Shown here: positions 19,131 to 63,284 of the stretch, piece after piece | How positions within the stretch are numbered: position 1 is the first letter of the stretch | Layout: the number at the start of each line of letters is the position of its first letter | Assembly (NCBI RefSeq): GCF_041200025.1 | Contig: NZ_CP165628.1 | Span: 1,612,001-1,676,000 of the forward strand | Direction of reading: 5' to 3' | Source of the DNA: Rouxiella sp. WC2420 | GTDB lineage: Bacteria; Pseudomonadota; Gammaproteobacteria; Enterobacterales; Enterobacteriaceae | DNA: 64,000 nucleotides | Notes under the pieces: model-generated | Databases searched by the model: none | What the model saw: the letters and a program-made list of their open reading frames with translations, nothing else | What the model was told of the DNA's origin: nothing | Position numbers and translations under genes: made by a program

Positions 19131-19692
19131 TTTTTTCCTGAGGAATTTCTTAAACGGTCACTGGGAGACCTGAATAAGATCCGAGTAAACCTGAGTAAAG
19201 TCTGATAAAGGGCTTAACGCGGCGTCGGGAGTGGCATTGAGTGAGTCACGAGATGTTTTACTAAAAGAAATTTGTAACTTTAGCCCGCGAAATCTTGTCA
19301 TCGGGCGCTAAATTAGTGCAAAATAGCGCTCATGCAAAATAACCGACGCCTAAACGCGCCGGTTATTTTTTTTGCATGGTTTTTCAAACTAATTCAACAG
19401 AGGCCGGACCCAGATCCGGATAGATAACCAGATTTCGTGTGCGATCCCAAATAAATAACGATCGCCACTATGAGGAATAGTAAGATGGGGCAATTTTTCA
19501 AACCTGTACCAATACCTTCCGGTGTTGCTTCCTGCCGCGTGCCACAGCCGGCCGCCTTTGCGTCTGTTTTCTTCGACGTGAAGATTAATCCCCCATTTTA
19601 CTCAATGAGTCGTCTCGAACGAAGTTTTCCCAGTACCTTGCTGAATTCGGCCTTAGCACGCCAGAACTTTGCAGGTCAGGGGAGGCTCGCCC
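19131..19692 (+). other. puuA-puuP intergenic region
   Basis: This 562-base stretch contains the terminator at 19336-19371 and a small CCGGA/TCCGG hairpin near 19403-19418. An unassigned 72-codon frame with a ribosome site begins at 19485 and runs 11 bases into puuP. No recognised gene is present. puuP therefore probably has its own promoter after the terminator. Confidence 0.5.
19336..19371 (+). terminator. Rho-independent terminator after puuA
   Basis: The stem AAAATAACCG/CGGTTATTTT is extended by further pairs in the loop and followed by a T run. It lies about 200 bases after the puuA stop codon. Confidence 0.8.
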
Positions 19693-32993: not shown

Positions 32994-34007
32994 TTAAGCC
33001 GGCTGAGCGTTTCGTCGCACTTTGTTGAGCCAGTTATCAAGCTGCGTCTGTCGGCCAGCCCATAACGATTCCGCTTTCTCGACGCTGACAGTCTCGAAAC
33101 GGATCATATCGCCGGGTTTGGCCTGACCGAGACGAGCCAGATCGGCGCGGATCACGGTGGCGATTTTGGGATAGCCCCCGGTAGTTTGCCGATCGTTCAT
33201 GGCAATAATCGGCTCGCCGCTGCCAGGAATCTGAATACTGCCGCGTGAAATACCGTCGGAAACAATGTTGAAACCCTTGGTGTGGGAGATTGGATTACCA
33301 TTCAACCGGTAACCCATGCGGTCGCTTTGTTCGCTGACTCGATAAGCGGTACTCAAAAACTGGCTTATCGCGGTCTGATCAAAGTGATCGTCCTGTGGTC
33401 CCAGGATCACTCGGATCGGGCGTCGTTCGCGCTGTGGCATCAGCCGTTGCTCGGGAACGCCGCGTGCTTTGTTCGTAAAATGAGCGCCGTGTGGAGTGGG
33501 CATCCAATGACTTTTTTTCACTCGATGCAGTGAAGGATTAAGCGGCAACCAGTCGCCTTTTTGCAGCTGCCTGCCGCTAAATCCGCCCAAACCCGCGCGC
33601 ATCAGCGTAGAAACACTGCCCATTACTGGCTTGACTTTGAAGCCTCCGGCGACCGCCAGATAACCTCGCGCGCCGCTGAGCGTGCGGGCAATGCGTAAAG
33701 TGTGGCCCGGCAATAACGTTAGCCGATGGTAAGGCTCGGCCTCGACGCCGTCGATGGTCAGCGCCATATCGCCGGTGACTGCAAAAATGCAAGGTTCGCT
33801 GCCGGTCAGGCGTAATGTGGCGCCCGTCAGGGTAAATTCCAGCGCACCGGTATCAGCCTGATTACCCACCAGCGCGTTGGCAATGGCAAAACTCATTTCA
33901 TCCATCGCGCCCGACGGCGGCACTCCGTAGTCTTCAAAACCAAATCTTCCGGCATCTTGCAGGGTGGTGAACAGGCCGGGAGATAACACTTCAAAACCGT
34001 CGATCAT
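32994..34007 (-). CDS. pxpC: 5-oxoprolinase subunit PxpC (YbgK-like)
   Basis: PxpC forms with PxpA and PxpB the ATP-dependent enzyme that opens 5-oxoproline to glutamate. The 337-residue protein is of the KipA/AHS2 biotin-dependent-carboxyltransferase fold: LSPGLFTTLQDAGRFGFEDYGVPPSGAMDE at the start, FAVTGDMALTIDG, ILGPQDDHF, and IPGSGEPIIAMNDRQTTGGYPKIATV. The ATG at 34007 was chosen because it overlaps the pxpB stop (ATGA) with GGAG upstream; a GTG at 34019 is the alternative. Slightly longer than E. coli YbgK (310). Confidence 0.92.
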   Translation of the reverse strand: MIDGFEVLSPGLFTTLQDAGRFGFEDYGVPPSGAMDEMSFAIANALVGNQADTGALEFTLTGATLRLTGSEPCIFAVTGDMALTIDGVEAEPYHRLTLLPGHTLRIARTLSGARGYLAVAGGFKVKPVMGSVSTLMRAGLGGFSGRQLQKGDWLPLNPSLHRVKKSHWMPTPHGAHFTNKARGVPEQRLMPQRERRPIRVILGPQDDHFDQTAISQFLSTAYRVSEQSDRMGYRLNGNPISHTKGFNIVSDGISRGSIQIPGSGEPIIAMNDRQTTGGYPKIATVIRADLARLGQAKPGDMIRFETVSVEKAESLWAGRQTQLDNWLNKVRRNAQPA

Positions 34008-34726
34008 TGCCAACTCCACTCGGGTAAAAAGTCGGCCTTGGCCGCTAAATCGTGATATTCCGCTTCGCCAATCGGGGTGAATTTTACTCGATCCCCAGCG
34101 CTGAACAAAAAAGGCTGGCCGCGTTCGGGCGCAAAGCTGCGCACCGGTGTGCGGCCTATCAGATGCCAGCCGCTGGGAGCTTCCACCGATCCGACGGCAG
34201 TTTGCATACCGCCAATGCTGATGCTGCCTGCCGGAACTTTCAGTCGGGGAGACTCACGGCGCGAGGTATGCAGCTGTGGGTCGAGGCCGCCGAGGTAGGC
34301 AAAACCCGGCATAAACCCAATCATATAAACACGATACGAGGCCGCGATGTGGCGATCTATCACTTCTTGCTCGCGTAATCCATGGCTCTGCGCCAACCAT
34401 GCCAGATCAACCCCCTGATCACCGCCATAATTGACGGGAATGGTCCAGATTTTCACTCGTTCAGCACCGGCATCTGGCTGTGAAAGCAGCTCGGTCAAGG
34501 TTTCAACCAGTTTAGCCTGTCGGGTTTGAGTCGAGTCATAGCCCACGGTCAGCGCGCGATAGGTTGGCACCAACGAGGTTACGCCGGGCACTGCTGCCTT
34601 GCGCACGCGTGCGGCCAGGGCGGTCACTCGACTGTTGATCGCTTCATCAATTACTTCACCGAAATCGACGTAAACTGCCTGATCGGCAATCGGCAGGATC
34701 CGCCACGGGGCAGAATTTTCAGTCAC
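34004..34726 (-). CDS. pxpB: 5-oxoprolinase subunit PxpB (YbgJ-like)
   Basis: PxpB (KipI/AHS1 domain) is the partner of PxpC in the 5-oxoprolinase complex. The protein has WRILPIADQAVYVDFGEVID at the N-terminus and the diagnostic YMIGFMPGFAYLGGLDPQLHTSRRESPRLKVPAGSISIGG and GWHLIGRTPV in the C-terminal half. A GTG at 34726 is chosen as start because AGAGGAAA lies 6-8 bases upstream and the N-terminus then fits the family (240 residues). An ATG at 34774 would give 256. It overlaps pxpC by four bases and is divergent from pxpA. Confidence 0.88.
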   Translation of the reverse strand: MTENSAPWRILPIADQAVYVDFGEVIDEAINSRVTALAARVRKAAVPGVTSLVPTYRALTVGYDSTQTRQAKLVETLTELLSQPDAGAERVKIWTIPVNYGGDQGVDLAWLAQSHGLREQEVIDRHIAASYRVYMIGFMPGFAYLGGLDPQLHTSRRESPRLKVPAGSISIGGMQTAVGSVEAPSGWHLIGRTPVRSFAPERGQPFLFSAGDRVKFTPIGEAEYHDLAAKADFLPEWSWQ

Positions 34727-34855
34727 TGATATTTCCTCTGGAAAAAAAATCGCATTCCCGCGCAGGGAGTTCAACGTGAAGAACGACGATAAAAAAACAG
34801 TTCATTGCTTTTAATTTAAAGATGCTTTTAACTTAAACAAATATCGGAATACTTT

Positions 34856-34865
34856 TGGCATACCA
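34856..34865. promoter_or_regulatory. Candidate GntR/FCD operator upstream of pxpA
   Basis: TGGCATACCA is a near-palindrome of the TGG-N4-CCA type used by FCD-subfamily GntR regulators. A related site occurs at 36796-36806 in front of the DUF1989 operon. The FCD regulator gene at 40981 lies in the same cluster. Binding is inferred. Confidence 0.45.
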
Positions 34866-34998
34866 CTGGTGTGCTGTCAATACGCCGTGAACATCTGGCA
34901 GTGGTTTTGCATTAACCAATGCAAGCGCGTGCTTATTCCAATGACCTACAACAGCACGCAAAAACAGTGCCAATCATTTACTCATCGGGAGAAAGAAG

Positions 34999-35769
34999 AT
35001 GTTGATCGATCTGAACAGCGACATGGGCGAGAGTTTTGGAGACTGGAAAATGGGCGAAGACGAGGAGATGCTCAGCATTGTGACCTCGGCAAATATTGCC
35101 TGCGGCTTTCACGCCGGCGATCCGGATGTGATGTTCAATACGCTGACTGCCGCCAAAGCCAACGGTGTCGGGGCGGGGGCGCATCCAAGTTTTCTCGATA
35201 TTCAAGGGTTTGGCCGTCGTCAGATCCTTGGGGAAACGCCCGCACAAATTCAACGACAGATTATTTATCAAATTGGTGCATTAAAGGCGTTGGCTGAAAG
35301 CATGGGCTTCCCGCTACAGCATGTAAAAACTCACGGCGCGATGGGCAATATGGCGGCGGAAGATCCTGAGCTGGCGATGGCGGTGGCGCGAGCTATCCAA
35401 CTGGTTGATGCAGATTTGATTATGGTCGTGATGCCTGGCATGGAGACAGAAAAAGCCGCCGAAAAACTGGGGCTAAGAATGGTACGCGAGATTTATGCCG
35501 ATCGCGCCTATACGGAAACTGGCACGCTGGTATCACGCAAGCTGCCGGGCGCAGTGATCCACGACGCGCAGCAGGCCGCCACGCGGGTCATGCAGATGCT
35601 GGAGAGTGGGGCGATCCTCACTCTGGACGGTAAAAAACTGCCGACCCGCATCGACAGTATTTGTGTGCACGGTGATACTCCGGGAGCCGTTGCAATGGCG
35701 CGCCAGCTGCGCTCGCTGCTGGAAAGCAATGGCCTGACCCTGGCACCGATGGCGCAAGTCATTGGCTGA
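34999..35769 (+). CDS. pxpA: 5-oxoprolinase subunit PxpA (LamB/YcsF family)
   Basis: PxpA is the LamB/YcsF-family subunit of ATP-dependent 5-oxoprolinase and acts with PxpB and PxpC. The 256-residue TIM-like-barrel protein has the family motifs LIDLNSDMGESFG, NIACGFHAGDPDVM, GAHPSFLD, VKTHGAMGNMA and SICVHGDTPGAV. AGAAAGA-type ribosome sequence precedes the ATG. It is divergent from pxpBC, unlike E. coli where the genes are co-directional, and starts 272 bases from pxpB. Confidence 0.94.
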   Translation: MLIDLNSDMGESFGDWKMGEDEEMLSIVTSANIACGFHAGDPDVMFNTLTAAKANGVGAGAHPSFLDIQGFGRRQILGETPAQIQRQIIYQIGALKALAESMGFPLQHVKTHGAMGNMAAEDPELAMAVARAIQLVDADLIMVVMPGMETEKAAEKLGLRMVREIYADRAYTETGTLVSRKLPGAVIHDAQQAATRVMQMLESGAILTLDGKKLPTRIDSICVHGDTPGAVAMARQLRSLLESNGLTLAPMAQVIG

Positions 35770-35777
35770 CAGTAGGC

Positions 35778-36740
35778 TCAACGACGGCGCAGCTCCCAAA
35801 TTTGTGGGTTAATCATCGAAGGCGGGCAGCGGTCGTTTAAAACCTCAAGCACGCCGGTTACCGCCGCGCTCGCCATGCGTATCAACGCCTGCTCGGCCGA
35901 GGCGGCGGCGTGCGGGGTCAGCACCACGTTTGGCAGTTGGGTCAGCGGGCTGGAGGCGGGCAAAGGTTCAACGGCAAATACGTCGAGTCCAGCTCCGGCG
36001 ATTTCCCCCTGCTGCAATGCGGCAATCAGCGCGACTTCATCCACCAGCGCACCTCGGCTGGTGTTAATCAGGTACGCCGATGGTTTCATTATTTTCAGCT
36101 GCTCTGCGCCAATCAGATGCTGTGTCTCAGGCAGCGAAGGCGCATGTAAAGAAACGATGTCACTGCTGGTCAGCAGACTCTCCAGACTTGACGCTTTTTC
36201 AAGCCCCAAATCAGCGAGTTCTTCGGCGCTGCGGCGGGTTAACACCTGCACGCGCATGCCCATCGCCTGGGTCATTTGCGCGGTCATTTGGCCGATAGCG
36301 CCATAGCCGACTATGCCGAGCGTGGCGCCAGACAGTTCACGTAACCCCCCCTTGAAACGGAATGAAAACTCACCCCGACGCACAGCCTGATCCGATTCGG
36401 GAAGGCGTTTGGTTAAAGCAAACATCAGTCCCAGCGCGTGCTCTGCTACCGACCGGTTATTGGCTCCCGGCGTGTTAAATACCGCAACACCTAATTCATT
36501 GGCACCTTCCAAATCGATACCGTCGATGCCGACACCGTGTACGGCGATTGCGCGCAAAGCAGGCAACTGCACCATTCTGGTGCGCGGAAATTGACCACTG
36601 CGATAGATAGCCGCGACGACCTGATCCACTGGCGCATTGGCACAAGCTTCTTCGCCAACCAGCGGCTCAATGCCGTTATCCCTGAGTTGTTGTAAGCCGC
36701 TTTGGTGGATTGGCTGCGGGATCAGACAAAATTTGTTCAT
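35778..36740 (-). CDS. D-2-hydroxyacid dehydrogenase (first copy)
   Basis: This 320-residue NAD(P)-dependent oxidoreductase interconverts a 2-oxo acid and a D-2-hydroxy acid. The Rossmann signature is LGIVGYGAIGQMTAQ (about residue 140) and the catalytic segments are LINTSRGALVDE (Arg), GLDVFAVEPLP (Glu) and LTPHAAASAEQA (His). Its 3' end faces pxpA with 8 bases between stops, and its 5' end is divergent from the DUF1989 operon. It is distinct in sequence from the second copy at 44411-45367. Substrate unknown. Confidence 0.88.
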   Translation of the reverse strand: MNKFCLIPQPIHQSGLQQLRDNGIEPLVGEEACANAPVDQVVAAIYRSGQFPRTRMVQLPALRAIAVHGVGIDGIDLEGANELGVAVFNTPGANNRSVAEHALGLMFALTKRLPESDQAVRRGEFSFRFKGGLRELSGATLGIVGYGAIGQMTAQMTQAMGMRVQVLTRRSAEELADLGLEKASSLESLLTSSDIVSLHAPSLPETQHLIGAEQLKIMKPSAYLINTSRGALVDEVALIAALQQGEIAGAGLDVFAVEPLPASSPLTQLPNVVLTPHAAASAEQALIRMASAAVTGVLEVLNDRCPPSMINPQIWELRRR

Positions 36741-36795
36741 TTTTTCACTCTTTTTTTAGTGGATAAAGTGCGCTTGGCATTTTAATTGCATTTCT

Positions 36796-36806
36796 TGTGT
36801 ATACCA
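36796..36806. promoter_or_regulatory. Candidate GntR/FCD operator in the divergent hydroxyacid dehydrogenase/DUF1989 promoter
   Basis: TGTGTATACCA, extended as TTGTGTATACCAA, is a near-palindrome resembling the site upstream of pxpA. It sits between flanking arms CTTGGCATT (36773-36781) and AATGCCAAG (36824-36832), which are perfect inverted repeats of each other. Likely regulator: the FCD protein at 40981. Inferred, not shown. Confidence 0.45.
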
Positions 36807-36871
36807 AAGGAATTCCAATTAGGAATGCCAAGAAAATAGCAGCAGTTTTTTTGTATAGCGAGAGGAATTGT

Positions 36872-37525
36872 ATGACCGCCAAAAACGACTCATCTCTGTC
36901 TGACTTTGTATTGGATGCAACGCGCGGGACCGCTGTAGCATTACAGAAAGGTCAGGTGCTGAGTATTACCAATCTCCAGGGAAATCAAGTTGTTGACGCT
37001 TGGGCTGTGATGCAGTCTGACCCTTTTGAGTACTCCTCCATGGAGCACACTCGTTCAATTAACAGCAATCTTTTTTATCAGTTGGGCATGCCGGTAGTGA
37101 GTATTTACCGCCGCGCGATGTTTACTCTGGTCGGCGATACCACCCCCGGCCGTCACGATACTTTGCTGTGCCCGTGCAATGCAGCCATTTATCGCGAGCT
37201 GGGCTGTAGTGAGTATCACCGCAGCTGTACCGATAACTTCCATGAAGCGCTGGCAGAAAAGGCAATCAAACTGCCGTTTACCCCCGCCTCGTTGAATCTT
37301 TTTATGAATGTGCCGATTACCGAAGCCGGTGAACTAGACCGCGTACCCCCGCGTTCTGTTGCGGGCGACGTATTACAACTGCGCGCCGAAGCGGATATCT
37401 ATGTCGTGCTGTCAGCCTGCCCGCAGGACATCACCCCGATTAATGGCGCATCTCGTCAGCCGGCAGATATTGGTTTGAGCGTCTCATACGACAATGCGAA
37501 AAGCGTGCCGGAGGAGGCCAAATGA
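36872..37525 (+). CDS. DUF1989 (urea carboxylase-associated family) protein
   Basis: This 217-residue protein has the DUF1989 pattern: an N-terminal GTAVALQKGQVLSITNLQGNQVVDAWAV, then SMEHTRSINSN, DTTPGRHDTLLCPCNA, SCTDNF and FTPASLNLFMNVPI. The conserved His, Cys and Asn residues suggest a metal- or thiol-dependent active site. Relatives CgdA and CgdB act as a two-protein carboxyguanidine deiminase in guanidine breakdown; only one copy is here. Start 36872 chosen for GAGAGGAA upstream. It is the first gene of an operon with an amino acid ABC transporter and a ureohydrolase and overlaps the next gene by four bases. Confidence 0.85.
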   Translation: MTAKNDSSLSDFVLDATRGTAVALQKGQVLSITNLQGNQVVDAWAVMQSDPFEYSSMEHTRSINSNLFYQLGMPVVSIYRRAMFTLVGDTTPGRHDTLLCPCNAAIYRELGCSEYHRSCTDNFHEALAEKAIKLPFTPASLNLFMNVPITEAGELDRVPPRSVAGDVLQLRAEADIYVVLSACPQDITPINGASRQPADIGLSVSYDNAKSVPEEAK

Positions 37526-38340
37526 GCGAAGTATCTACCCCTTTATTAACGGTTAAAGAGCTGAACAAGAGCTACGGCGATCTACACGTGCTGAAAAATG
37601 TTGCGCTCGACGTGCATAAAGGCGAAGTGGTGTCGATTATCGGCGCCAGTGGTTCTGGTAAAAGTACCTTCCTGCGCTGCCTTAACGTGATGGAAATGCC
37701 GCAAAGCGGTTTTATGAATTTCGACGAGTTCGCGTTTGATTTTCGCGACGGCGCGCGCGCCCAGCCAACGGACGATCAGCTGCGACTGCTGCGCGCCCGC
37801 ATCGGCATGGTGTTCCAAAGCTATAACCTGTGGCCGCACATGACGGTGCTGGAAAACGTTATCGAAGCACCTCTGCGGGTAAAAAAAATGCCGCGCAAAC
37901 AGGCGATTGAACTGGCCGAAAGCCTGCTTAGCCGCGTTGGGCTGTACGAAAAACGTTTTCAGTATCCGGCGAAACTTTCCGGCGGACAGCAGCAGCGCGT
38001 GGCGATTGCCCGCGCGTTGGCAATGCAGCCACAGCTGATGTTGTTTGATGAAGTGACTTCGGCGCTGGACCCGGAACTGGTAGGGGAAGTGCTGTCGCTA
38101 ATGGCTTCGCTGGCCGATGATGGCATGACCATGCTGCTGGTGACTCATGAGATTGCTTTCGCCCGCGATGTTTCTTCTCGCGTGGTGTTTTTCGATCAGG
38201 GTGTGATGGCCGAAGACGGTCCGCCCAATCAGGTGCTACACAATCCGGAAAGCCCGCGTTTACGTCAGTTCTTAAGCCGTATTTTGCATGAAGATGTTTC
38301 ACATATTACTAATAAAGGTAAGCAGGGGATCCAGCCATGA
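37522..38340 (+). CDS. Polar amino acid-type ABC transporter ATP-binding protein
   Basis: This 272-residue ATPase belongs to the histidine/glutamine/arginine importer group. Walker A is GASGSGKST, the signature [15 protein letters not shown], Walker [15 protein letters not shown] and the switch [32 protein letters not shown] is typical of the group. It overlaps both the DUF1989 gene and the permease gene by ATGA, so the three are translationally coupled. A C-terminal tail of about 15 residues extends past the usual end. Confidence 0.92.
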
Positions 38341-38993
38341 ACCAACTTTGGGACGACATCAACACCTATGGCATGGGATTCCTCGAGGCTTCGTGGACCG
38401 TTTTGCTCATCACCATTTGCACCATCGTACTGAGCTGGGTATTCGGCTTTATGGCGGTAAGCGCCAAGACCTCGAAGGTCAAACTGTTTCGCGGCATGGG
38501 CCGTTTTTACATCTGGTTTATTCGCGGTACGCCGGCGCTGATTCAGGTGTTCGTGGTGTATTTCGGTTTCCCGCAAATTGGCATTCACCTGTCGCCGTTT
38601 GTGGCGGGCGTGCTGGCGCTGGCCATGAACAGCGGGGCCTATGTGGCCGAAATTATCCGCTCCGGCCTGAAAGCTATTCCGCGCAGCCAGGTGGAATCAG
38701 CCTCGGCGCTAGGCATGAGCAAGGGCGAGATCATGCGCCGTATCGTGCTGCCGCAGGTGTTTCGTATCGTGCTGCCTCCGCTGACCAACGAGGCGATTTC
38801 GACGCTGAAAAACACTTCGCTGCTGTCAACCATCACCGTGGTTGATATCACGCTGTATGCCCAGACCATTATTTCCGCGACGTTCCGCCCGTTCCAGTTC
38901 TACATCGCCGCGGCGCTGATTTATCTGGTGCTGACCACGCTGTTGACCGAGCTTTCTGACTGGCTCGAACGTCGTCAGGCCCGCTTTAGCTGA
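38337..38993 (+). CDS. Polar amino acid-type ABC transporter permease
   Basis: This 218-residue inner-membrane protein has five hydrophobic segments of the His/Glu/Gln/Arg permease family. The EAA loop reads AIPRSQVESASALGMSKGEIMRRIVLPQ, and FIRGTPALIQVFVVYFG and LKNTSLLSTITVVDIT are family motifs. Only one permease gene is present, so a homodimeric channel is likely. It partners the ATPase upstream and the binding protein at 40043, with the ureohydrolase gene inserted between. Confidence 0.9.
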   Translation: MNQLWDDINTYGMGFLEASWTVLLITICTIVLSWVFGFMAVSAKTSKVKLFRGMGRFYIWFIRGTPALIQVFVVYFGFPQIGIHLSPFVAGVLALAMNSGAYVAEIIRSGLKAIPRSQVESASALGMSKGEIMRRIVLPQVFRIVLPPLTNEAISTLKNTSLLSTITVVDITLYAQTIISATFRPFQFYIAAALIYLVLTTLLTELSDWLERRQARFS

Positions 38994-39010
38994 TTATTAC
39001 GAGGTTTTAA

Positions 39011-39961
39011 ATGAGCGTTTTACCCACTGATTCACTGGAAACTCCACGTTTTTGCGGCGTGCCAACCTTTATGCGCCTGCCGATGGCCACCGATCTCAGC
39101 CAGCTCGATGCGGCGATTATTGGTCTGCCATCCGATTCGGGTGCGCCGTTTCGTACCGGCGCACGCTTTGGGCCAAATGCGGTCAGGGCGATGTCGATTA
39201 TGCTGCGCCCAATCAACCCATACCGTAATGATATCAACGTATTCGACACTTTGCGCTGTGCCGATGCCGGTGATGCGGCGGTCGTTCCGGGCTATGAAGA
39301 AGAGTGTCTGGAACGTATCGAGCAGGCGGTTTATGCCCTTTCAAGCGCTGGCGTCGTGCCGTGCGGTATTGGCGGTGATCACTCGATTACTCTGGCCGAG
39401 CTGCGCGCGGTGGCCAAAGTTCACGGACCCGTTGCCCTGGTGCAATTCGATTCGCACAGCGATACCTGGGACAAATACTTTGCCGATAAACGTTACAGCG
39501 CAGGCACGCCTTTCCGTCGTGCGGTTGAGGAAAACATTGTCGACCCTTCGCATTCTATTCAGGTCGGGCTGCGCGGCTCGTTGTTCCGTACCTCAGATAT
39601 CACTCAGTCGATAGACCTGGGTTACGAAGTGTTTACCACCGATCAGATGTTTGACTTGGGTATAAAAGAGATGGCGCAGCGCATCGCCGAACGCACTGCC
39701 GGTCGCCCAACATTTATTACCTTCGATATGGATTTCGTCGATCCTGCATTCGCGCCGGGTGTGCAAACTCCCGAGGCGGGTGGGCCAAGTTCGCGCGAAG
39801 CCTTGCAGCTGCTGCGCGCATTGAAGGGCATCAACATGGTGGGCTGTGACGTAACTGAAATCAGCCCGATGTACGACGGACCAGGGCAAATTACCTCTTT
39901 GCTCGGTGCGACGGTAATGGCCGAGCTGTTGGCGTTACTGGCCAGTGAACGCGCGGCATAA
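39011..39961 (+). CDS. Arginase/agmatinase-family ureohydrolase with altered active site
   Basis: Ureohydrolases split a guanidino group to urea plus an amine using two Mn ions. All six metal ligands are present in this 316-residue protein: His124 (GGDHSI), Asp147, His149, Asp151 (DSHSD), Asp239 and Asp241 (DMDFVDPAFAPG). The family's pocket His, normally just before GT in YxHGTPFRR (His141 of arginase), is Ala164 here (YSAGTPFRR). Length and TGARFGP near residue 50 fit agmatinase/guanidinobutyrase/guanidinopropionase rather than arginase. It sits inside a polar amino acid ABC operon after a DUF1989 gene. Substrate unknown. Confidence 0.88.
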   Translation: MSVLPTDSLETPRFCGVPTFMRLPMATDLSQLDAAIIGLPSDSGAPFRTGARFGPNAVRAMSIMLRPINPYRNDINVFDTLRCADAGDAAVVPGYEEECLERIEQAVYALSSAGVVPCGIGGDHSITLAELRAVAKVHGPVALVQFDSHSDTWDKYFADKRYSAGTPFRRAVEENIVDPSHSIQVGLRGSLFRTSDITQSIDLGYEVFTTDQMFDLGIKEMAQRIAERTAGRPTFITFDMDFVDPAFAPGVQTPEAGGPSSREALQLLRALKGINMVGCDVTEISPMYDGPGQITSLLGATVMAELLALLASERAA

Positions 39962-40042
39962 GCGCGGTTTTTAACGTGAGTTTTGAAGACGCTTTATCGA
40001 CACACAGGGTTTATTTTCTCCAACTTACTTGAGAGTGACATC

Positions 40043-40846
40043 ATGAAAATTAAGCATTTTCTAAGCATTGCCACCGTTCTCGCTGCGATGACCACGCCTT
40101 TCTTCGCTTCTGCAGCTGATACCGCGGGTCAGCTCGAGCTATTAACTCCGGGCAAACTTTCTGTAGCCACTGAAGGTACCGATCCCCCGTTCAGCATGCG
40201 CAGCGCCAATGGTCAGCTCGATGGCCTTGAGATCCGCGTAATGAAAGAAGTGGCGCGCCGTCTGCATCTTGAATACACCCCGGTTATCACCAAGTGGGAC
40301 TCGATTCTGGTCGGTTTGCAGGCCAATCAGTTTGATATGAGCAGCGCCGCGATGGATATCACCCCCGCGCGTCAGAAAGCAATCGTGTTTTCGGATGGTT
40401 GGATTGAATCGGGCGGTCGTATCATTATTCCTCTGAAATCTGACATCAAATCGGCTAAAGATCTGAAAGGTAAACGCATTGGTGCACAAGTTTCTTCAAC
40501 CTATGCCCAGTTGGCGGTGGATCACGGCGCAACGTTGAAAAATTATATCGACGTGACTGCGGCGGTTCAGGACCTGGCGAACGGTAACATCGATGGGGTC
40601 ATCAATGACTCGATTGGTAACGCCTATCTGATTAAAGACATGCACCTGCCACTGACGCAAACACCTGACTACGTTAGCGTTATTCAGAAAGGTTTCGCCT
40701 TCAAAAAAGGAAAACCAAATCTGGTGGCGGCAGTGAACAAGGCGCTGGCGGATATGAAGGCCGATGGCACTTATGCTAAACTCGTGACCCCAATCGTGGG
40801 CTTCGATCCGGCACCGAAAGATCCGGTACGCACGTTACCTCAGTAA
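40043..40846 (+). CDS. Polar amino acid-type ABC transporter substrate-binding protein
   Basis: This 267-residue periplasmic protein has a signal peptide (HFLSIATVLAAMTTPFFASA, cleavage near 24). The solute-binding core has GKLSVATEGTDPPFSMRSANGQLDGLEIRVMKEVARRL, QANQFDMSSAAMDITPARQKAIVFS and GKRIGAQVSSTYAQL. The family's ligand-binding Arg and Asp positions for an alpha-amino acid are at least partly kept (TPARQ). The ATG at 40043 was chosen over 39983 because it starts the signal peptide directly. It completes the DUF1989-ABC-ureohydrolase operon. Confidence 0.9.
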   Translation: MKIKHFLSIATVLAAMTTPFFASAADTAGQLELLTPGKLSVATEGTDPPFSMRSANGQLDGLEIRVMKEVARRLHLEYTPVITKWDSILVGLQANQFDMSSAAMDITPARQKAIVFSDGWIESGGRIIIPLKSDIKSAKDLKGKRIGAQVSSTYAQLAVDHGATLKNYIDVTAAVQDLANGNIDGVINDSIGNAYLIKDMHLPLTQTPDYVSVIQKGFAFKKGKPNLVAAVNKALADMKADGTYAKLVTPIVGFDPAPKDPVRTLPQ

Positions 40847-40925
40847 ACTGTGTCATCACCCATGGCGTGACACAGTCTGGTTCAGCGCTCTGGTGACAGG
40901 GCGCAAACGGGCGTGAATTAACGTA

Positions 40926-40952
40926 GGGCAGGCACCCGTGTCTGCCTTTTTT
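40926..40952 (+). terminator. Rho-independent terminator after the binding-protein gene
   Basis: GGCAG/CTGCC with an inner CAC/GTG forms a compact stem followed by six T residues. A second, T-less stem, ACTGTGTCA/TGACACAGT, lies at 40847-40876, immediately after the binding-protein stop. Together they separate the operon from gntR. Confidence 0.8.
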
Positions 40953-40980
40953 ATCAGTCTTGTTAATGTGAAATAACACC

Positions 40981-41652
40981 ATGGACTCCATCAAAAGTAC
41001 GTCTGATTTGATTGGTGAGCGCGAGCAGAATCTCAGCAGTAAAGCCTATGAAGTGCTGCTGAATATGCTGATTAACCGGGAACTGCCGGTCAACACTGTG
41101 CTGCAGGAAAGACGGCTGGCCGAGCTGCTGAATATTTCACGTACGCCGGTACGCGATGCTCTTAACCGATTAGAAAATGAAGGGTTTATTATTCGCACCG
41201 GCGGCCGTACGCCAGTGGTTAAAGAGTTTTCAATTCGCGAGCTGGTAGAAACGTTACACGTTCGGCGCACGCTGGAGTCGGAAGCCGCCAGTCTGGCAGC
41301 CGGTCGTGTTCCGCTGGCTGAGCTAGATGCTGTCGAGGCAGGAATTCGCAAACTGCTGGCCGACGAAACGCCGAGTCCGCAAGAGGATTGGGAGGTCGAT
41401 AGCCGCCTGCATACCGCCGTGGCACAGTACAGCGGTAATCTGTTGCTCATGCAATATATTGAAAGTCTGCGCCTTAAAACGCGGATGTTTAACCTTCGTC
41501 AGGTGCCTGAGCGTTTTGTTAGCGGTCATCATGAGCATCTGGAAATTATCGCCGCCTTGCGCAGCGGTGATGGAGAAGCAGCCCGCGCCGCAGCGGCAAA
41601 ACATATCGACAACGTGCGTGAAAGTATCGTTCGTCGATTGAGTCAGCTGTAA
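40981..41652 (+). CDS. GntR-family regulator, FCD (FadR) subfamily
   Basis: This 223-residue protein has an N-terminal winged helix (about 15-80; LAELLNISRTPVRDALNRLENEGFIIRTGGRTPVV) and a C-terminal FCD helical domain (about 85-220) with RRTLESEAASLAA, DSRLHTAVAQYSGN and HHEHLEIIAALRSGDGEAA. The conserved Asp and His residues can bind a metal that contacts a carboxylate effector. It lies between the ureohydrolase operon and the convergent M20/aminotransferase genes and probably controls the surrounding genes, with an amino acid or related acid as effector. Confidence 0.92.
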   Translation: MDSIKSTSDLIGEREQNLSSKAYEVLLNMLINRELPVNTVLQERRLAELLNISRTPVRDALNRLENEGFIIRTGGRTPVVKEFSIRELVETLHVRRTLESEAASLAAGRVPLAELDAVEAGIRKLLADETPSPQEDWEVDSRLHTAVAQYSGNLLLMQYIESLRLKTRMFNLRQVPERFVSGHHEHLEIIAALRSGDGEAARAAAAKHIDNVRESIVRRLSQL

Positions 41653-41690
41653 TCGGTTGTTTTGAAGAACGGCGGCAAGTGATCCGGCAT

Positions 41691-42971
41691 TCATTGCCCG
41701 CCACCGGCGCTGCGAATTTTTAGCGCTTCGCCAAGTACGCGCGTGGCGGCGGCAAAATCGTCTAGATCCATGCTTTCGTGCGGATTGTGACTGCCGTTGG
41801 CGTTACGGACAAACAGCATCGCGCTCGGCACGCCCTGTGCAGCGAACAGCGCGGCATCATGTCCAGCGCCGCTTTGCAGCGACATGGCTGGAATATTTTG
41901 CTCGTCGGCTGCGCTTTGCAGCAGGGAGAGCAATGCTTCATCCATCACGCCCGGCGCGCTGCGCGTTTGTGCGCCGAGAGTAAAAGTCACGCCGTGACAG
42001 GCGGCAATGGTGGTTATGCGGTGTGAAAGACGTTGGTCGATCAGTTCCAGCGTTTCCAGGCTGCGCGAACGGAAATCGACACAGAATTTCACTTCACCGC
42101 TGACTTTGCTAAAGTCAGCCTGTAATGCATCGGTTGCCAGCTGTCCGTTAGTGACGGTGAGCTGGTGGCCTTGTGCTTCTAATTCAATCCAGTCCTGATA
42201 AAGCCCGGTGACCAATTCTGCAGCCGCCAGCACGGCGTCTTGCCGATGCAGGCGCGGCGTAGCGCCCGAATGAGCATAATGCCCGCTGACGCTGGCCTGA
42301 CGATAGCGCAGGCTACCGCAAATACCGCTGACGATTCCTAACGGTTGTCCTGCATTTTCAAGGATCGGGCCTTGTTCAATGTGCAATTCGATAAAACAGT
42401 TTACATTTGCGGCCGAGAGATGCGGCGCGCCTGAAATCAAACCTTTGCAGTCACCGCCCAATGCGGCGAGATGTTGTTTCAGCGTTTGCTGGTTATCGAA
42501 ACGCCTTACCTCAAGCGAATCGTCATTCAACAGGCCAAAGGCTGCTTTACTGCCTAAATACGAAAGCGGAAACCAGGCACTTTCTTCGGCGCGAACGGCC
42601 ATGACTGTGACACTGATTTCTGGTTGATAGCCCGCCTTGACCCATCCTGCCAAAACCGCAATGCCCGCCAATACACCCGCAGCGCCGTCATAGTTGCCGC
42701 CGCGCGGCACTGAATCGAGGTGCGAACCGGTGATCACCTGCGGGGCAAAAGTATTACGGCCCGGCAGGGTCATATAAAGGTTAAGGGCAGCATCGCGGCT
42801 GACTTGCAATCCTAGAGCTTCGGCGGTCTGCGTCAGCAGATCGTGCGCCCGCTGCTCGCCTGCGCCGTAGGTGTCGCGAGTTATGCCGACGCCATCAAAG
42901 CTCATCTTCTGTAATTGGTCGAATAAATCAGCGGCCAGTTGCAGATCGGGTTCGACAAGTTCGAGGATCAA
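41691..42971 (-). CDS. M20-family carbamoyl/ureido amidohydrolase
   Basis: This 426-residue metal-dependent amidase resembles allantoate amidohydrolase, N-carbamoyl-L-amino-acid hydrolase and beta-ureidopropionase. The two-metal site is His84 (TGSHLDSVPRGGNYDGAAG), bridging Asp95, and Glu130 (VRAEESAWF). ELHIEQGPILE is the family's second diagnostic stretch and SGAGHDAALFAAQGVPSAMLFV the last. The family removes carbamoyl or ureido groups as ammonia and carbon dioxide. It overlaps the aminotransferase gene by four bases, so its amino acid product is probably passed to that enzyme. Confidence 0.9.
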   Translation of the reverse strand: MILELVEPDLQLAADLFDQLQKMSFDGVGITRDTYGAGEQRAHDLLTQTAEALGLQVSRDAALNLYMTLPGRNTFAPQVITGSHLDSVPRGGNYDGAAGVLAGIAVLAGWVKAGYQPEISVTVMAVRAEESAWFPLSYLGSKAAFGLLNDDSLEVRRFDNQQTLKQHLAALGGDCKGLISGAPHLSAANVNCFIELHIEQGPILENAGQPLGIVSGICGSLRYRQASVSGHYAHSGATPRLHRQDAVLAAAELVTGLYQDWIELEAQGHQLTVTNGQLATDALQADFSKVSGEVKFCVDFRSRSLETLELIDQRLSHRITTIAACHGVTFTLGAQTRSAPGVMDEALLSLLQSAADEQNIPAMSLQSGAGHDAALFAAQGVPSAMLFVRNANGSHNPHESMDLDDFAAATRVLGEALKIRSAGGGQ

Positions 42972-44185
42972 ACCAGCTCCCCACAGGCTTTAACCATTAA
43001 TTCACAGGCGCGATCCACGTCTTCATCAGCAATGCTGTAAGCCAGGCGAAAATACGGCGCCATGCCAAAAGCGGTGCCGGGAACTACGGCTACGCCGGCT
43101 TGTTCAAGGAAATATTCTGCGACGTCGAGGTCACTGCCCAGCGTTTTGCCTGCGGGCGTGGTTTTCCCGAGCAGCTTTTCACAGCCGACAAACAGGTAGA
43201 AGGCCGAAGGCGGGGTTTCGACCCAAAGATCCGGCGACTCGCGGAGGATAGCCAGAGCGCTGTCGCGACGAGTGCGCAGACGATCGCACCATTCGGCCAG
43301 TAAATTCTGTGGGCCTTCCAAAGCAGCAATCGCTGCCGCTTGAGCGATGGCGTTCGGGCAAGAGGTGCTTTGAGATTGCAGCATTGCGAGTGCGCTGATT
43401 AACCACTCGGGGCCACCGGCAAAGCCAAGACGCCAGCCGGTCATGGCATAGGTTTTGGACACGCCGTTGATGGTCAGTGTGCGGTCAGCCATGGCTGGAA
43501 CCGCGGTCCCGAAGGAAACAAACTGGCCTTCATAAACAATGTGTTCGTAAATGTCATCGGACATCACCAGCACGCGCGGGAAATCTGCCAGTACGGCGGC
43601 CAACGCCTGTAATTCTTCAGCCGAATACAGCGCGCCGCTGGGATTGCCCGGCGAGTTAAGCAATAGCCAACGAGTATTTGGGGTCAACGCTGCCGCAAGA
43701 CTGGCTGGGGTGAGTTTAAAGCCTTCGTCGGCGGCTGGAACTACCGCAACGGGTTCTGCACCGGTCAGGCGAATCATATCTGGATAAGACACCCAATAAG
43801 GCGCGTTGAGGATAACCTCATCACCTGCGTCCAACGTCGCTAAAAAGGCGTTGAAGATGATCTGTTTCGCACCGGTGCTGGCAATAATTTGTTTGGCAGA
43901 ATAGTCGAGCTGATTATCACGTTTAAACTTTTTGATAATTGCAGCTTTAAGCTCTGCGGTGCCACCGACATCGGTATAACGGGTCTGACCGGCCTGCATT
44001 GCAACAACGGCGCCGTCCTGAATATGTTGTGGGGTATCAAAATCCAGCTCACCGGAGCTCATGTTGATGATATCGCGACCTTCTGCGGCCAGACGGCGCG
44101 CCAGCTGGGAAATAACCAGTGTCACAGAAGGGGTAACCGAGGCCAGTCGGGAAGCCAGTTTTCGTTCAGGATGCGCAGAATTCAT
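42968..44185 (-). CDS. Class I/II PLP-dependent aminotransferase
   Basis: This 405-residue fold-type I aminotransferase of the aspartate aminotransferase I-gamma group transfers an amino group from an amino acid to a 2-oxo acid. The Schiff-base Lys is Lys244 (INGVSKTYAMTGWRLGF). LNSPGNPSGALYSAEEL and VMSDDIYEHIVYEG hold the Asn and Asp/Tyr that contact PLP. The C-terminal Arg that holds the substrate carboxylate is in APYFRLAYS. It is translationally coupled to the M20 hydrolase. Specificity is not evident. Confidence 0.92.
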   Translation of the reverse strand: MNSAHPERKLASRLASVTPSVTLVISQLARRLAAEGRDIINMSSGELDFDTPQHIQDGAVVAMQAGQTRYTDVGGTAELKAAIIKKFKRDNQLDYSAKQIIASTGAKQIIFNAFLATLDAGDEVILNAPYWVSYPDMIRLTGAEPVAVVPAADEGFKLTPASLAAALTPNTRWLLLNSPGNPSGALYSAEELQALAAVLADFPRVLVMSDDIYEHIVYEGQFVSFGTAVPAMADRTLTINGVSKTYAMTGWRLGFAGGPEWLISALAMLQSQSTSCPNAIAQAAAIAALEGPQNLLAEWCDRLRTRRDSALAILRESPDLWVETPPSAFYLFVGCEKLLGKTTPAGKTLGSDLDVAEYFLEQAGVAVVPGTAFGMAPYFRLAYSIADEDVDRACELMVKACGELV

Positions 44186-44410
44186 CAGAGTCTCATGGGT
44201 TAGCGATTAACTGCTTGTACAGTAATTTTTACCCACAAAAAGTGTGATGAAAAGCGAATAAAATTTGTATCGAGCTCAAAAAATTTTGATGAATGGGGAG
44301 AGGGAACGAGTAACTGTTATCTCCGCCCTAAACATTCTGTTTTTCTGCCCGGCCCGCGCGCGCACTCGATTTACTGAATGGGTTACGGGCAACCGGCGTC
44401 TGCAAATAAA

Positions 44411-45367
44411 TTAAAGCTCCCGCACCGGCTGGCCGGCGATAAACGCCTGAATATCTTCAATCGCTTCATTAAAGTAAATACCGTAATTGTCGTCGGTTAC
44501 ATAGCCCAAATGCGGTGTCGCCAATACGTTGGGCAGATGGCGATAAGGATGATTATCCGGCAGCGGCTCGTGATCAAACACGTCCAGACCAGCCCCCGCA
44601 ATCTGCCGATGGTTTAGCGCCTCGACTAACGCGGCCTGATCCACCAGCCCCGAACGTGAAGTATTGATCAAGAAAGCTGTGGATTTCATCGCCGCCAGAT
44701 CCTGTGCGGAGATAATGCCGCGACTGCGATCGCTGAGCACCAGATGCAGCGATACAAAATCACTGTTGTTCAAAAGTGCCTGTTTTGACTCAGCCAACTC
44801 GACGTTAAATTCTGCCGCGCGCTCGGCGGTGAGATTCTGGCTCCACGCGGTAACCTTCATCCCAAAAGCCTGAGCAATCAACGCCATGCGCTGACCAATT
44901 TTCCCCAGCCCGATCAGACCGAGTGTTTTTCCCTTTAGCCCAATTCCCAGCGTGCTCTGCCACGGGCCACTGTTGCGAATTGAGCGATTTTCGACAGTAA
45001 GATGCCGCGCCAGACCAAGAATCAGCGCCCAAGTCAGCTCAACTGGCGCATCTGAACCGCTGCCGGTGCCGCACACCGTCACGCCTTGCGCCTTCGCCGC
45101 TGGCAAATCCACCGCAGCATTACGCATTCCCGAAGTCACCAGCAATTTTAGCTTTGGCAGGCGGCTCAGCAATGCTGCGGTGATTGGCGTGCGTTCGCGC
45201 ATAATCACTAAAATATCTGCGTCGACCAGCAACTCGACCAGGCGATCTTGCTGCAAAATTGGATTATGAAGCGCGGTGATTTCCACTGCTGGCTTTAGAA
45301 TCGACCAGCCGGCCTGGGTCAGGGCGACATTTTGATAATCATCGAGAATAATGCAGCGCAAAGTCAT
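44411..45367 (-). CDS. D-2-hydroxyacid dehydrogenase (second copy)
   Basis: This 318-residue NAD(P)-dependent D-2-hydroxyacid dehydrogenase has the nucleotide motif LGLIGLGKIGQRMALIAQAFG and the catalytic segments LINTSRSGLVDQ (Arg), GLDVFDHEPLPDNHPY (Glu) and ATPHLGYVTDDNY (His), plus an N-terminal substrate domain with ILDDYQN. An ATG at 45367 was preferred because AGGG lies 8 bases upstream; the ATG at 45373 is too close to it. It follows the aminotransferase gene in the same direction with 225 bases between, so it may reduce that enzyme's 2-oxo acid. Substrate unknown. Confidence 0.88.
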   Translation of the reverse strand: MTLRCIILDDYQNVALTQAGWSILKPAVEITALHNPILQQDRLVELLVDADILVIMRERTPITAALLSRLPKLKLLVTSGMRNAAVDLPAAKAQGVTVCGTGSGSDAPVELTWALILGLARHLTVENRSIRNSGPWQSTLGIGLKGKTLGLIGLGKIGQRMALIAQAFGMKVTAWSQNLTAERAAEFNVELAESKQALLNNSDFVSLHLVLSDRSRGIISAQDLAAMKSTAFLINTSRSGLVDQAALVEALNHRQIAGAGLDVFDHEPLPDNHPYRHLPNVLATPHLGYVTDDNYGIYFNEAIEDIQAFIAGQPVREL

Positions 45368-45616
45368 AACCATTTCCCTGAATTTGAGACGAAGGTGGGA
45401 TGGAGTAAATTCTATTGAAAGTTATAGCAGTGCTTTGAAATAGAAGAAAGAAGACACAGCTCAACAAGTTGTCACATTGTATGACAATGTGATCTGGCGC
45501 TGGGTTTAAGCCTAAATGTTCTTGAAGTGCTTTAACGTTATCTTATCGTGATGAAGGGCTGAACAGACATGTTAAGGCATATTAAGCTAGCAAAATGCTT
45601 ATTATGCCTTTGTTTT

Positions 45617-46687
45617 TTAAGCTTTCGGGAACACCCACACGTCCTTGGCGGGAAACGACAGGCGGCAAAGCGCGGCATTTCTGACATCGTTTCCATAGGC
45701 GCGGATCACAAAATCATCAGCCTGAGTGCGGAACAGATACTCCCAGCGATCGCCGAGATACATGCTGGTAAGCAAGGCTAGCTCGAGCTGATTTTCTTCT
45801 GGTTCGTCAGCTATTTTCACGCGTTCGACGCGGATCACCGCCGTGCCTTCTGATCCGGCCTGTACACCTTGGCCTGCCTGCCCCCAAAGTACCCAGTCTT
45901 TGCCTTCAATTCGCGCCCGACCGTCTCTGACTTCGGTCACCTTGCCATGCAGCCGATTGTTGCTGCCCATAAACTCGGCGGTAAATAGTGTGGCAGGGGA
46001 GCCATACATTTCCTGCGGCGTGCCTTGTTGCTCAATTTTTCCGTTATTAAGCAGCAGGATGCGGTCGGAAATGGCCATTGCCTCGTTTTGATCGTGAGTT
46101 ACCATCAGCGCCGACAGACCCAGCTTGATAATCAGTTCGCGCAGAAAAACACGCGCCTCTTCACGAAGCTTGGCATCGAGGTTGGATAACGGTTCGTCCA
46201 ACAGGATAACTGGCGGGTTATAAACCAGCGCACGACCAATTGCCACGCGCTGTTGCTGGCCACCAGAAAGCTGATGCGGATGGCGATTACCCAGATGCCC
46301 CAGCCCCAGTTGGTCGAGCACGTCTTGCACTCGCTGCTTTGTTTCTGAGGAAGAGGTTTTACGCAATTTAAGCGGATAGGCGACATTTTCGAACACCGTT
46401 TTATGCGGCCATAAAGCATAGGATTGAAACACCAGACCGAGATTGCGCTCCTCGGCAGGAATTTCCGAACGCGAGGTGCCGTCATAAACGGTATTCTTGC
46501 CGATCACTATTTTACCCTGCGTGGGCTTTTCCAACCCGGCGACCGCTCGTAGCAGGGTGGTTTTTCCGCTGCCGGAAGGCCCCAGCAGGGAAACGACCTC
46601 GCCGCGCCTGAGATTCATCGACACCCCTTTTAGCACCGGGTTGTCGCCATAGGTTAAGTGCAAGTTATCTACCGTTAGTTCAATCAT
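45617..46687 (-). CDS. ABC transporter ATP-binding protein, FbpC/AfuC type
   Basis: This 356-residue ATPase has Walker A GPSGSGKTT, signature [16 protein letters not shown], Walker B VILLDEPLSNLDA and switch VTHDQNEAM, with a C-terminal TOBE regulatory domain (about 250-355). It is of the ferric iron/sugar-phosphate/spermidine group. The ATG at 46687 was chosen because it overlaps the permease gene by eight bases; an upstream in-frame ATG at 46714 would overlap more. Third gene of a binding protein-permease-ATPase operon. Substrate discussed under the binding protein. Confidence 0.88.
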   Translation of the reverse strand: MIELTVDNLHLTYGDNPVLKGVSMNLRRGEVVSLLGPSGSGKTTLLRAVAGLEKPTQGKIVIGKNTVYDGTSRSEIPAEERNLGLVFQSYALWPHKTVFENVAYPLKLRKTSSSETKQRVQDVLDQLGLGHLGNRHPHQLSGGQQQRVAIGRALVYNPPVILLDEPLSNLDAKLREEARVFLRELIIKLGLSALMVTHDQNEAMAISDRILLLNNGKIEQQGTPQEMYGSPATLFTAEFMGSNNRLHGKVTEVRDGRARIEGKDWVLWGQAGQGVQAGSEGTAVIRVERVKIADEPEENQLELALLTSMYLGDRWEYLFRTQADDFVIRAYGNDVRNAALCRLSFPAKDVWVFPKA

Positions 46688-48449: not shown

Positions 48450-48563
48450 ACTCAACCCTTCGCTCTTGACGCCGCAGCATCTTTGCCTACTCTTACTAAC
48501 CCGAATCAATGACCAGAGTCAGATCATCGGGATCCCCTGAATTGCATTGAAGTTAAACGACGG

Positions 48564-49652: not shown

Positions 49653-49776
49653 TATTATTAATCCTTAGTAACATATCGTTATAAAATGTAACTTATAGTG
49701 GATATGCACTCAGGCGCAATCATGTAGCCGGCTTATCTTCTCGTTTTGTGAGGCTGGGCGATATTTATTCAATAAT

Positions 49777-49808
49777 AAAAAAACCGGCTCATCACTGAAC
49801 CGGTTTTT
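49777..49808 (-). terminator. Rho-independent terminator after the porin gene
   Basis: AAAAACCGG/CCGGTTTTT with a 12-base loop gives a T run on the minus strand. It lies about 35 bases after the porin stop and separates the porin from the ABC operon downstream. Confidence 0.85.
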
Positions 49809-49843
49809 AAAATTCTTAACGACTTTAAATACTGAGGAAGGTA

Positions 49844-57672: not shown

Positions 57673-57695
57673 GATTCCACTCCGCGATGCTGAGA

Positions 57696-60314: not shown

Positions 60315-60367
60315 GATTTTCCTCGAAAAATTAACAACTCCATTTCTTCCCTGTCACCGGAGAAGCG

Positions 60368-63282: not shown

Positions 63283-63284
63283 GA

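Follow-up and report, generated by a model that had tools for sequence, protein, structure and literature searches.

What could a bacterium do with a lone DUF1989 protein, a polar amino acid importer and an altered ureohydrolase that stand beside a set of 5-oxoprolinase-like genes? The question is raised by a 64,000-nucleotide stretch of DNA (C1:1612001-1676000; hereafter the window) from the 5.28-Mb genome of Rouxiella sp. WC2420, in which the open reading frames of this gene cluster lie at the positions given in Table 1. A preliminary description of the same DNA had read the cluster as an uncharacterised pathway for a guanidino or ureido amino acid. The gene content that it named was confirmed, as Pfam and NCBIfam agree with the families, and its remark that the exact combination was not a recognised one also held: we found no description of this gene cluster among the papers listed by searches of the open-access literature. 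We consider it moderately probable that these genes make up a single inducible system for catabolism, organised as two modules. Module 1 would comprise the DUF1989 protein, the ABC importer with its binding protein and the ureohydrolase (an M24 enzyme in Rhizobiaceae), and module 2 would comprise a dedicated PxpABC and a D-2-hydroxyacid dehydrogenase (HADH1), with an M20 hydrolase and an aminotransferase as optional members.

The window genome was compared with five congeners (G001-G005, of which G004 belongs to the same species). The genes for DUF1989, ATPase, permease, ureohydrolase, binding protein and FCD regulator, together with pxpABC and HADH1, were found in unchanged order in all six Rouxiella genomes. 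Because this core is intact in every one of them and the larger gene set is found again in a second class, its conservation goes beyond chance. The ureohydrolase appears to be under strong constraint, rather than a decaying pseudo-enzyme, because its nonsynonymous divergence (dN) is 0.020-0.028 at a synonymous divergence (dS) of 0.86-1.02 (window versus four congeners, G004 set aside); for the M20 gene, two comparisons gave a dN of 0.175-0.185 at a dS of about 1.8. Among the other Rouxiella species, identity is 95-97% for the ureohydrolase and 75-79% for PxpC, and strong constraint would explain most of the high ureohydrolase identity. A recent transfer of the core was considered and rejected: its dS (0.59-1.77) is lower than that of pxp and HADH1 (1.22-2.22, two pxpC values being saturated) but resembles that of a flanking gene (1.10-1.20).

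The window DUF1989 protein had matches in 35/247 genomes of the order, none above 43% identity outside Rouxiella, and in 15/398 genomes of the phylum at an E value of 1e-30, with only G545 (58%) close. The ureohydrolase matched 2/398 phylum genomes at 1e-90 (its own and G545), adjoining DUF1989 in both. For the M20 protein, eight matches were found in the same 398 genomes at 1e-80; the best three lie in pxp/HADH1 clusters and the other five in stretches without pxp. No Escherichia coli record covered 80% of the core, and the ten records listed match the ABC ATPase only. With a DUF1989 alignment as the query, named genomes yielded the best 80 loci among the matches listed (L085-L164). The primary split was placed at a natural gap in E value between L111 and L112, separating L085-L111 (27 loci) from 53 others; a second, drawn after the neighbourhoods were known, separated L085-L117 (33 cluster loci, 49-91% identity) from L118-L164 (47 loci, 40-49%). 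In tblastn searches with the window proteins, pxpC was found at 23/27 loci above the natural gap and at 1/53 below it (L117). At the second split, the counts were 24/33 versus 0/47 for pxpC and 20/33 (54-97% identity) versus 14/47 (28-47%) for the ureohydrolase. Both modules adjoin in 24 of the 33 cluster loci, in two classes and with differing gene orders. Among the matches listed, pxp and DUF1989 occur together in the genera Rouxiella, Erwinia, Pantoea, Pseudomonas, Rhizobium, Neorhizobium, Mesorhizobium, Shinella, Xaviernesmea, Ferranicluibacter and Pseudohalocynthiibacter. The preliminary description had treated these genes as belonging together, and they do co-occur across classes.

Gene calling at 31 of the 33 cluster loci (L114 and L115 left out) identified the permease in 31, DUF1989 in 30, the ATPase in 30 (pooled with a second ATPase family), the binding protein in 27, the FCD regulator in 26, a hydroxyacid dehydrogenase in 25 (HADH1 and HADH2 pooled), pxpC in 24, pxpA and pxpB in 23 each, M20 in 19, the ureohydrolase in 18 and the aminotransferase in 4. 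The unity that had been claimed for all neighbours stood in part: DUF1989, importer, FCD regulator, pxp and HADH1 co-occur, but M20 and the aminotransferase are absent in two of the six Rouxiella genomes, and the second dehydrogenase, HADH2, looks confined to Rouxiella. In tblastn searches, HADH2 was the best match only at Rouxiella loci, apart from a 28% match in L132, and it is missing from the G001 stretch; it probably lies outside the conserved pathway. Upstream of it, at 45617-50989, are genes for a porin, a solute-binding protein, a fused permease and an ABC importer ATPase, found in 3/5 congener stretches; the importer scores best with 2-aminoethylphosphonate-type families, always below the equivalog cut-offs, and the porin had no match. 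HADH2 and these ABC and porin genes were rejected as cluster members, as no such unit occurs at cluster loci outside Rouxiella.

The Rhizobiaceae versions carry additional enzymes. Module 2 includes an M24 protein close to ectoine hydrolase (DoeA-like; M24-A) at 16/31 loci and a glyoxalase-family protein at 12/31, and a second M24 protein (M24-B) adjoins DUF1989 at 17/31. Of the M24 proteins, 5/16 M24-A and 6/17 M24-B rows were aligned; in the five M24-A rows, the Asp and His residues that usually form the metal site are absent, as they are in creatinase and DoeA. Either the ureohydrolase or M24-B is present in 30/31 gene-called loci, the exception (L088) being a 10.3-kb contig. Creatinase is an M24 enzyme that releases urea, and the ureohydrolase and M24-B may therefore replace each other. 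On an Agrobacterium plasmid, the annotation reads D-amino-acid transaminase, PxpA, PxpB, biotin-dependent carboxyltransferase, GntR, hydroxyacid dehydrogenase, Zn-dependent hydrolase, GntR, Xaa-Pro peptidase family, VOC, M24, urea carboxylase-associated protein, ABC ATPase, permease and binding protein; the order on a Shinella plasmid is identical, though a few of the names differ, and neither has a ureohydrolase in its cluster stretch. Next to pxpA in Rhizobiaceae, the D-amino-acid transaminase was found in 15/43 sequences searched beyond the query (five full length, nine cut at the locus end and one short partial). Close relatives of the fold-type I aminotransferase occur at cluster loci only in gammaproteobacteria. 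The use of different transaminases in the two groups suggests either a generic transamination or a product of D configuration.

Half-site searches upstream of genes recovered conserved palindromes. With a pattern list made post hoc, the palindrome TGGTATACCA/TGGTATACTG was found upstream of DUF1989 in 25/34 cluster loci (23/27 for L085-L111, as against 1/53 for L112-L164), of pxpA in 13/25, of HADH1 in 8/27 and of the aminotransferase in 2/7, compared with 0/47 control DUF1989 genes and 0.010 per kb elsewhere in cluster loci. The pxpB/pxpA gap of L049-L052, L087, L089, L091 and L093 holds a site of the same kind as TGGCATACCA of the window. A matrix built from the pxpB/pxpA sites of eight gammaproteobacterial loci ranked the HADH1/DUF1989 gap second in the window stretch, L049, L050, L051, L052 and L087, and ranked the region upstream of DUF1989 best in the Rhizobium loci L108 and L109 (17.2; the top of 36 shuffles of three loci was 16.9). 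Among plasmid loci fetched later, L185 has matches in both gaps and one elsewhere, and L186 has the DUF1989 match only. The argument from the putative operator is one of position and conservation. Because a palindrome of the same type precedes DUF1989 and pxpA, the two halves probably form one regulon; as far as sequence can say, this speaks against the unrelated regulons that the preliminary description had named as the contrary case. The palindrome would be the binding site of the FCD protein.

The ureohydrolase itself departs from its relatives. Among solved structures, those of guanidinopropionase, guanidinobutyrase and proclavaminate amidinohydrolase are closest to it, and it keeps GGDH, DSHSD, FDMD and TEISP, which we take to be the binuclear metal ligands and the guanidinium-binding Glu. 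However, the catalytic His of HGTPF is replaced by Ala (YSAGTPF) in 24/24 cluster genomes, and APGTGTPE is changed to AP(G/A)V(Q/E)TPE. His is kept in the three solved relatives, in the SpeB-like enzyme encoded elsewhere in the same genome and in 13/20 other ureohydrolase rows; the seven without it are the second copy of L144 and both partners in each of L123, L132 and L155. Five stretches with stops (L010, L016, L144, L114 and L115) were left out of the alignment, the site was re-read in L056, L144, L114 and L115, and among the distant loci with a ureohydrolase it was read in 12/14 (not L135 and L143). The L101 gene looks frame-shifted, downstream of the His/Ala site. In E. coli agmatinase, the H163F change leaves 3-5% activity (available part of PMC8125230), and in metformin hydrolase, where the equivalent residue is Asn199, a change to Ala abolishes activity (excerpted text of PMC11271267). 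Because the His is lost and such changes impair relatives, the chemistry or substrate of the window enzyme has likely changed, and the plain urea release assumed in the preliminary description is not supported for a subfamily with these pocket residues. Ordinary arginine-side catabolism would instead have an enzyme of the agmatinase or guanidinobutyrase type release urea from a linear guanidino acid such as 4-guanidinobutyrate, with the remaining genes serving amino acid salvage and 5-oxoproline recovery. The identity of the closest solved relatives would agree with this, as would the TIGR01230 agmatinase cut-off, which is passed (182.4 versus 174.3; PRK02190 is not, 274.4 versus 302), and the Sinorhizobium ureohydrolase SpeB2, which acts on guanidino acids according to the accessible portion of PMC7268258. 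However, the uniform loss of a His that these relatives retain, the poor activity of H163F and the housekeeping PxpABC elsewhere in the genome make this explanation quite unlikely.

Other ureohydrolase arrangements were also seen. One of the six Rouxiella genomes (L056, G001:C1:590-593 kb) has a tandem ureohydrolase pair with a polar amino acid importer, both copies with the catalytic His. DUF1989 loci of Bradyrhizobium, Chelatococcus and Xanthobacteraceae (L123, L132 and L155; also L135 and L143) carry two divergent ureohydrolases and an importer; in L123, L132 and L155, one partner of the pair has Asn at the His position, reminiscent of the paired metformin hydrolases. A more distant analogue (L073, L080 and L148) has importer, DUF1989, M20 and a His-bearing ureohydrolase consecutively on the same strand, in a stretch without a pxp match.

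The DUF1989 and Pxp proteins of the window would also be other enzymes than the canonical ones, because canonical CgdAB and PxpABC are encoded separately in the genome. The preliminary description had likened the DUF1989 protein to CgdA/B. However, it scores 100.6 against a cut-off of 284.7 and 69.4 against 205.95 with the UAAP1/UAAP2 profiles, and it is a single gene rather than an adjacent pair beside a urea/guanidine carboxylase. The canonical set lies in L055 (G000:C1:60000-79000; the set itself at C1:65-71 kb), where the guanidine/urea carboxylase (1815.9), UAAP2 (329.8) and UAAP1 (284.9; CgdAB) all exceed their cut-offs and are accompanied by NMT1-type importer genes. Three Cys residues are conserved across seven aligned DUF1989 sequences; in the available text of PMC12560246, DUF1989 occurs in trimethylamine N-oxide demethylase, where three Cys bind Zn. 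All three Pxp subunits are encoded together in the window, and PxpA falls below all three equivalog cut-offs and above two subfamily cut-offs, whereas PxpB passes its equivalog. A separate PxpABC (L184) passes as the canonical enzyme (PxpC 555.7 versus 500, PxpA 449.2 versus 378), which undercuts the suggested glutamate recovery through the window copy, whose PxpC score is far lower (Table 1). The window PxpABC thus appears to be a dedicated, non-housekeeping paralogue. A second uncharacterised pxp locus, L183 (G000:C1:2723000-2742500), has pxpABC with a biotin-carrier-like protein, SDR, aminotransferase and LAO-type importer.

The M20 protein passes the hydantoinase/carbamoylase profile TIGR01879 (266.3 versus 204) and keeps the metal ligands and the carboxylate Arg. 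Its EEGxRF motif reads EESxWFP, and the Asn of NxIP, presumably a substrate-binding residue of the N-x-I/V-P stretch, has given way to Ser or Ala in the window protein and in 19/19 cluster rows. Because of these changes, N-carbamoyl specificity should not be taken for granted, and the simple carbamoyl removal first proposed for M20 is not supported; an AllC-type function was rejected (197.9 versus 597.75). In the binding protein, the Arg and Asp to which the backbone of the amino acid is anchored in LAO-type proteins are conserved, and an extra Asp (AMDIT) is invariant among the rows aligned; these residues point to a cationic amino-acid-like ligand. The altered ureohydrolase and M20 pockets would also suit a non-guanidine substrate, such as a D-configured lactam or opine-like amino acid, degraded by an amidase- or formiminohydrolase-like ureohydrolase and by other C-N chemistry of DUF1989. 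The demethylase occurrence of DUF1989, the D-amino-acid transaminase gene adjoining pxpA in Rhizobiaceae and the D-2-hydroxyacid family of HADH1 would fit as well. Nevertheless, families with amidine or guanidine precedent (DUF1989, ureohydrolase and, in Rhizobiaceae, the DoeA-like M24) converge at cluster loci, and the ureohydrolase retains its metal ligands and guanidinium-binding Glu; we therefore regard a non-guanidine substrate as unlikely.

Several observations weigh against a single two-module system. The counts at cluster loci represent related genomes rather than independent events. The ureohydrolase was not seen at 13/33 loci by tblastn, and where present it has lost its catalytic His, which makes urea release doubtful, although the window enzyme does pass an agmatinase cut-off. 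M20 and the aminotransferase are at the locus in 4/6 Rouxiella genomes and gone from it in G003 and G005, where M20 found only a 33-34% paralogue elsewhere and the aminotransferase was judged at the locus only. The palindrome misses 12/25 pxpA and 28/29 binding-protein upstream stretches (1/29 has it). The matrix score upstream of DUF1989 is 10.2 in L091; in most other Rhizobium loci it is 7-12 and does not exceed that of shuffled sequence (mean best 10.4-11.6), and in L092, L098, L103, L105 and L111 the highest score falls elsewhere (for L105, in the pxpA/pxpB gap). The pattern list was fixed after the loci had been viewed, and within the window the palindrome is not significant (30 matches versus 22.2 expected at two or fewer mismatches, 2 versus 1.7 at one or fewer). 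Furthermore, each module occurs singly. L177 (G526, same class) has the aminotransferase, pxpABC, HADH1, M20 and FCD regulator with a TRAP transporter gene, and DUF1989 and the ureohydrolase are absent from its 19 kb, leaving module 2 alone; at L090, L098 and L112-L116, some of which are short contigs, module 1 genes were seen but no pxp gene in the stretch available. Single modules and the two congeners without M20 and aminotransferase would be expected if a DUF1989/ureohydrolase importer operon and an unrelated pxp/M20 salvage operon were chance neighbours. However, the modules adjoin in most cluster loci, in two classes and varied orders, and the same type of palindrome lies upstream of both, which makes chance very improbable.

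Returning to one inducible system, we provide a putative mechanism. It builds on the gene set, co-occurrence, modularity, common site, altered active sites and purifying selection seen at the sequence level; the reaction order, amidine chemistry, ring opening and substrate that we propose draw on what the families are known to do. The substrate, which we would guess to be an amino-acid-like cation carrying a substituted or cyclic guanidine or amidine, would be taken up by module 1 and hydrolysed at a C-N bond of the amidine or guanidine carbon by DUF1989 and the ureohydrolase or M24 enzyme. The dedicated PxpABC would open a lactam- or hydantoin-like ring at the expense of ATP, M20, where present, would remove an N-acyl or N-carbamoyl group, and transamination and D-2-hydroxyacid dehydrogenation would pass an amino acid or 2-oxo acid into central metabolism. 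An FCD repressor would act through the common TGGTATACCA operator. A more specific version, which we hold to be a long shot, is that other enzyme families reproduce the logic of creatinine degradation as a bacterial route for arginine glycation products. The substrate would be a cyclic guanidino amino acid, for example an imidazolone formed from arginine when plant and soil protein is glycated. Its exocyclic C-N bond would be cut by DUF1989, with the His-less ureohydrolase or a creatinase/ectoine-hydrolase-type M24 in Rhizobiaceae. PxpABC would then open the hydantoin with ATP, M20 would take off the carbamoyl group, and the transaminase and D-2-hydroxyacid dehydrogenase would finish the route.

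Table 1. Genes and predicted sites of the locus (window positions).
Feature	Position	Strand	Remarks
pxpC-like (AHS2) subunit	32994..34019	-	PxpC_5OPro 246 bits, cut-off 500
pxpB-like subunit	34004..34774	-	TIGR00370 179.7, cut-off 145.55 (passes)
Operator-like palindrome TGGCATACCA	34856..34865	.	gap between divergent pxpB and pxpA
pxpA-like subunit	34999..35769	+	one of three pxpA in the genome; other two 48% and 43%
HADH1, D-2-hydroxyacid dehydrogenase (glyoxylate-reductase/PGDH-like)	35778..36740	-	family matches
Second operator-like site GTGTATACCA	36797..36806	.	HADH1/DUF1989 gap; 2 mismatches to palindrome; kept in congeners
DUF1989 protein	36872..37525	+	one of three DUF1989 in the genome; original frame 36797-37525, start moved to ATG 36872
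Polar amino acid ABC importer, ATPase	37522..38340	+	family matches
Polar amino acid ABC importer, permease	38337..38993	+	family matches
Ureohydrolase, His-to-Ala subfamily (YSAGTPF, APGVQTPE), metal ligands intact	39011..39961	+	
Periplasmic binding protein	39983..40846	+	retains the Arg and Asp ligands for the amino acid; additional acidic residues
GntR/FCD protein, putative regulator of this locus	40981..41652	+	family matches
M20 hydantoinase/carbamoylase-family hydrolase (PRK12891 subfamily), altered pocket, optional	41691..42971	-	
Aminotransferase, fold-type I (PRK06107-like), optional	42968..44185	-	family match
HADH2, D-2-hydroxyacid dehydrogenase, neighbour gene	44411..45373	-	

The DUF1989 gene probably starts at ATG 36872 and not at GTG 36797, because AGAGG lies directly upstream of the former and the R. 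silvae copy is called at the equivalent 217-aa start; the GTG falls within the conserved palindrome-like site. The binding protein probably starts at a later ATG because of an apparent signal-peptide-like stretch. DUF1989 and ATPase, ATPase and permease, and M20 and aminotransferase overlap by 4 bases each. An Rfam scan of the window returned nothing at the gathering threshold, and therefore no known guanidine riboswitch is present there. Judged by their translations, genes at window positions 16478-21063 resemble those for putrescine utilisation (PuuD, PuuA and an APC permease), and a run at 56071-63857 resembles type VI secretion genes (protein kinase, ClpV, TssG, TssF and TssE).

The cluster ties together three poorly understood families, namely stand-alone DUF1989 proteins, non-housekeeping PxpABC and His-less ureohydrolases, in an apparent single regulon that spans two bacterial classes and plasmids. 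The automated labels "agmatinase", "urea carboxylase-associated" and "5-oxoprolinase" probably mask it, and solving the pathway would reveal a new DUF1989 activity and a nitrogen source of these bacteria, and would tell whether PxpABC acts on rings beyond 5-oxoproline.

Among known systems, the creatinine route employs a deiminase, an ATP-dependent N-methylhydantoinase and N-carbamoylsarcosine amidohydrolase. Our proposal shares its logic of deimination, ATP-driven ring opening and carbamoyl removal, with a urea-releasing branch, but the enzyme families differ. Like CgdAB with guanidine (urea) carboxylase, the cluster has the DUF1989 fold, conserved Cys residues and, presumably, a nitrogen-rich substrate class; however, its DUF1989 is solitary, far below the UAAP cut-offs and without a carboxylase, the true pair being elsewhere in the genome. 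It shares three subunits with the PxpABC 5-oxoprolinase, and the Corynebacterium pxp genes are likewise under a GntR-type regulator, PxpR (available part of PMC13274462), but the window paralogue is below the PxpC and PxpA equivalog cut-offs and a housekeeping set exists elsewhere. The ureohydrolase resembles guanidinopropionase, guanidinobutyrase and proclavaminate amidinohydrolase in fold, metal ligands and guanidinium-binding Glu and differs from them in its Ala and in AP(G/A)V(Q/E)TPE. Rhizobiaceae clusters include a DoeA-like M24-A, related to ectoine hydrolase and creatinase, whereas the window locus has no M24. Similar to the window enzyme, the metformin hydrolase MetCaCb does not have the conserved non-coordinating His (N199 takes its place), and its S289 is unusual (excerpted text of PMC11271267); we set S289 opposite the window Gln by counting and not by alignment. 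In contrast, MetCaCb is heteromeric, Ni-dependent and carries Asn where the window enzyme carries Ala.

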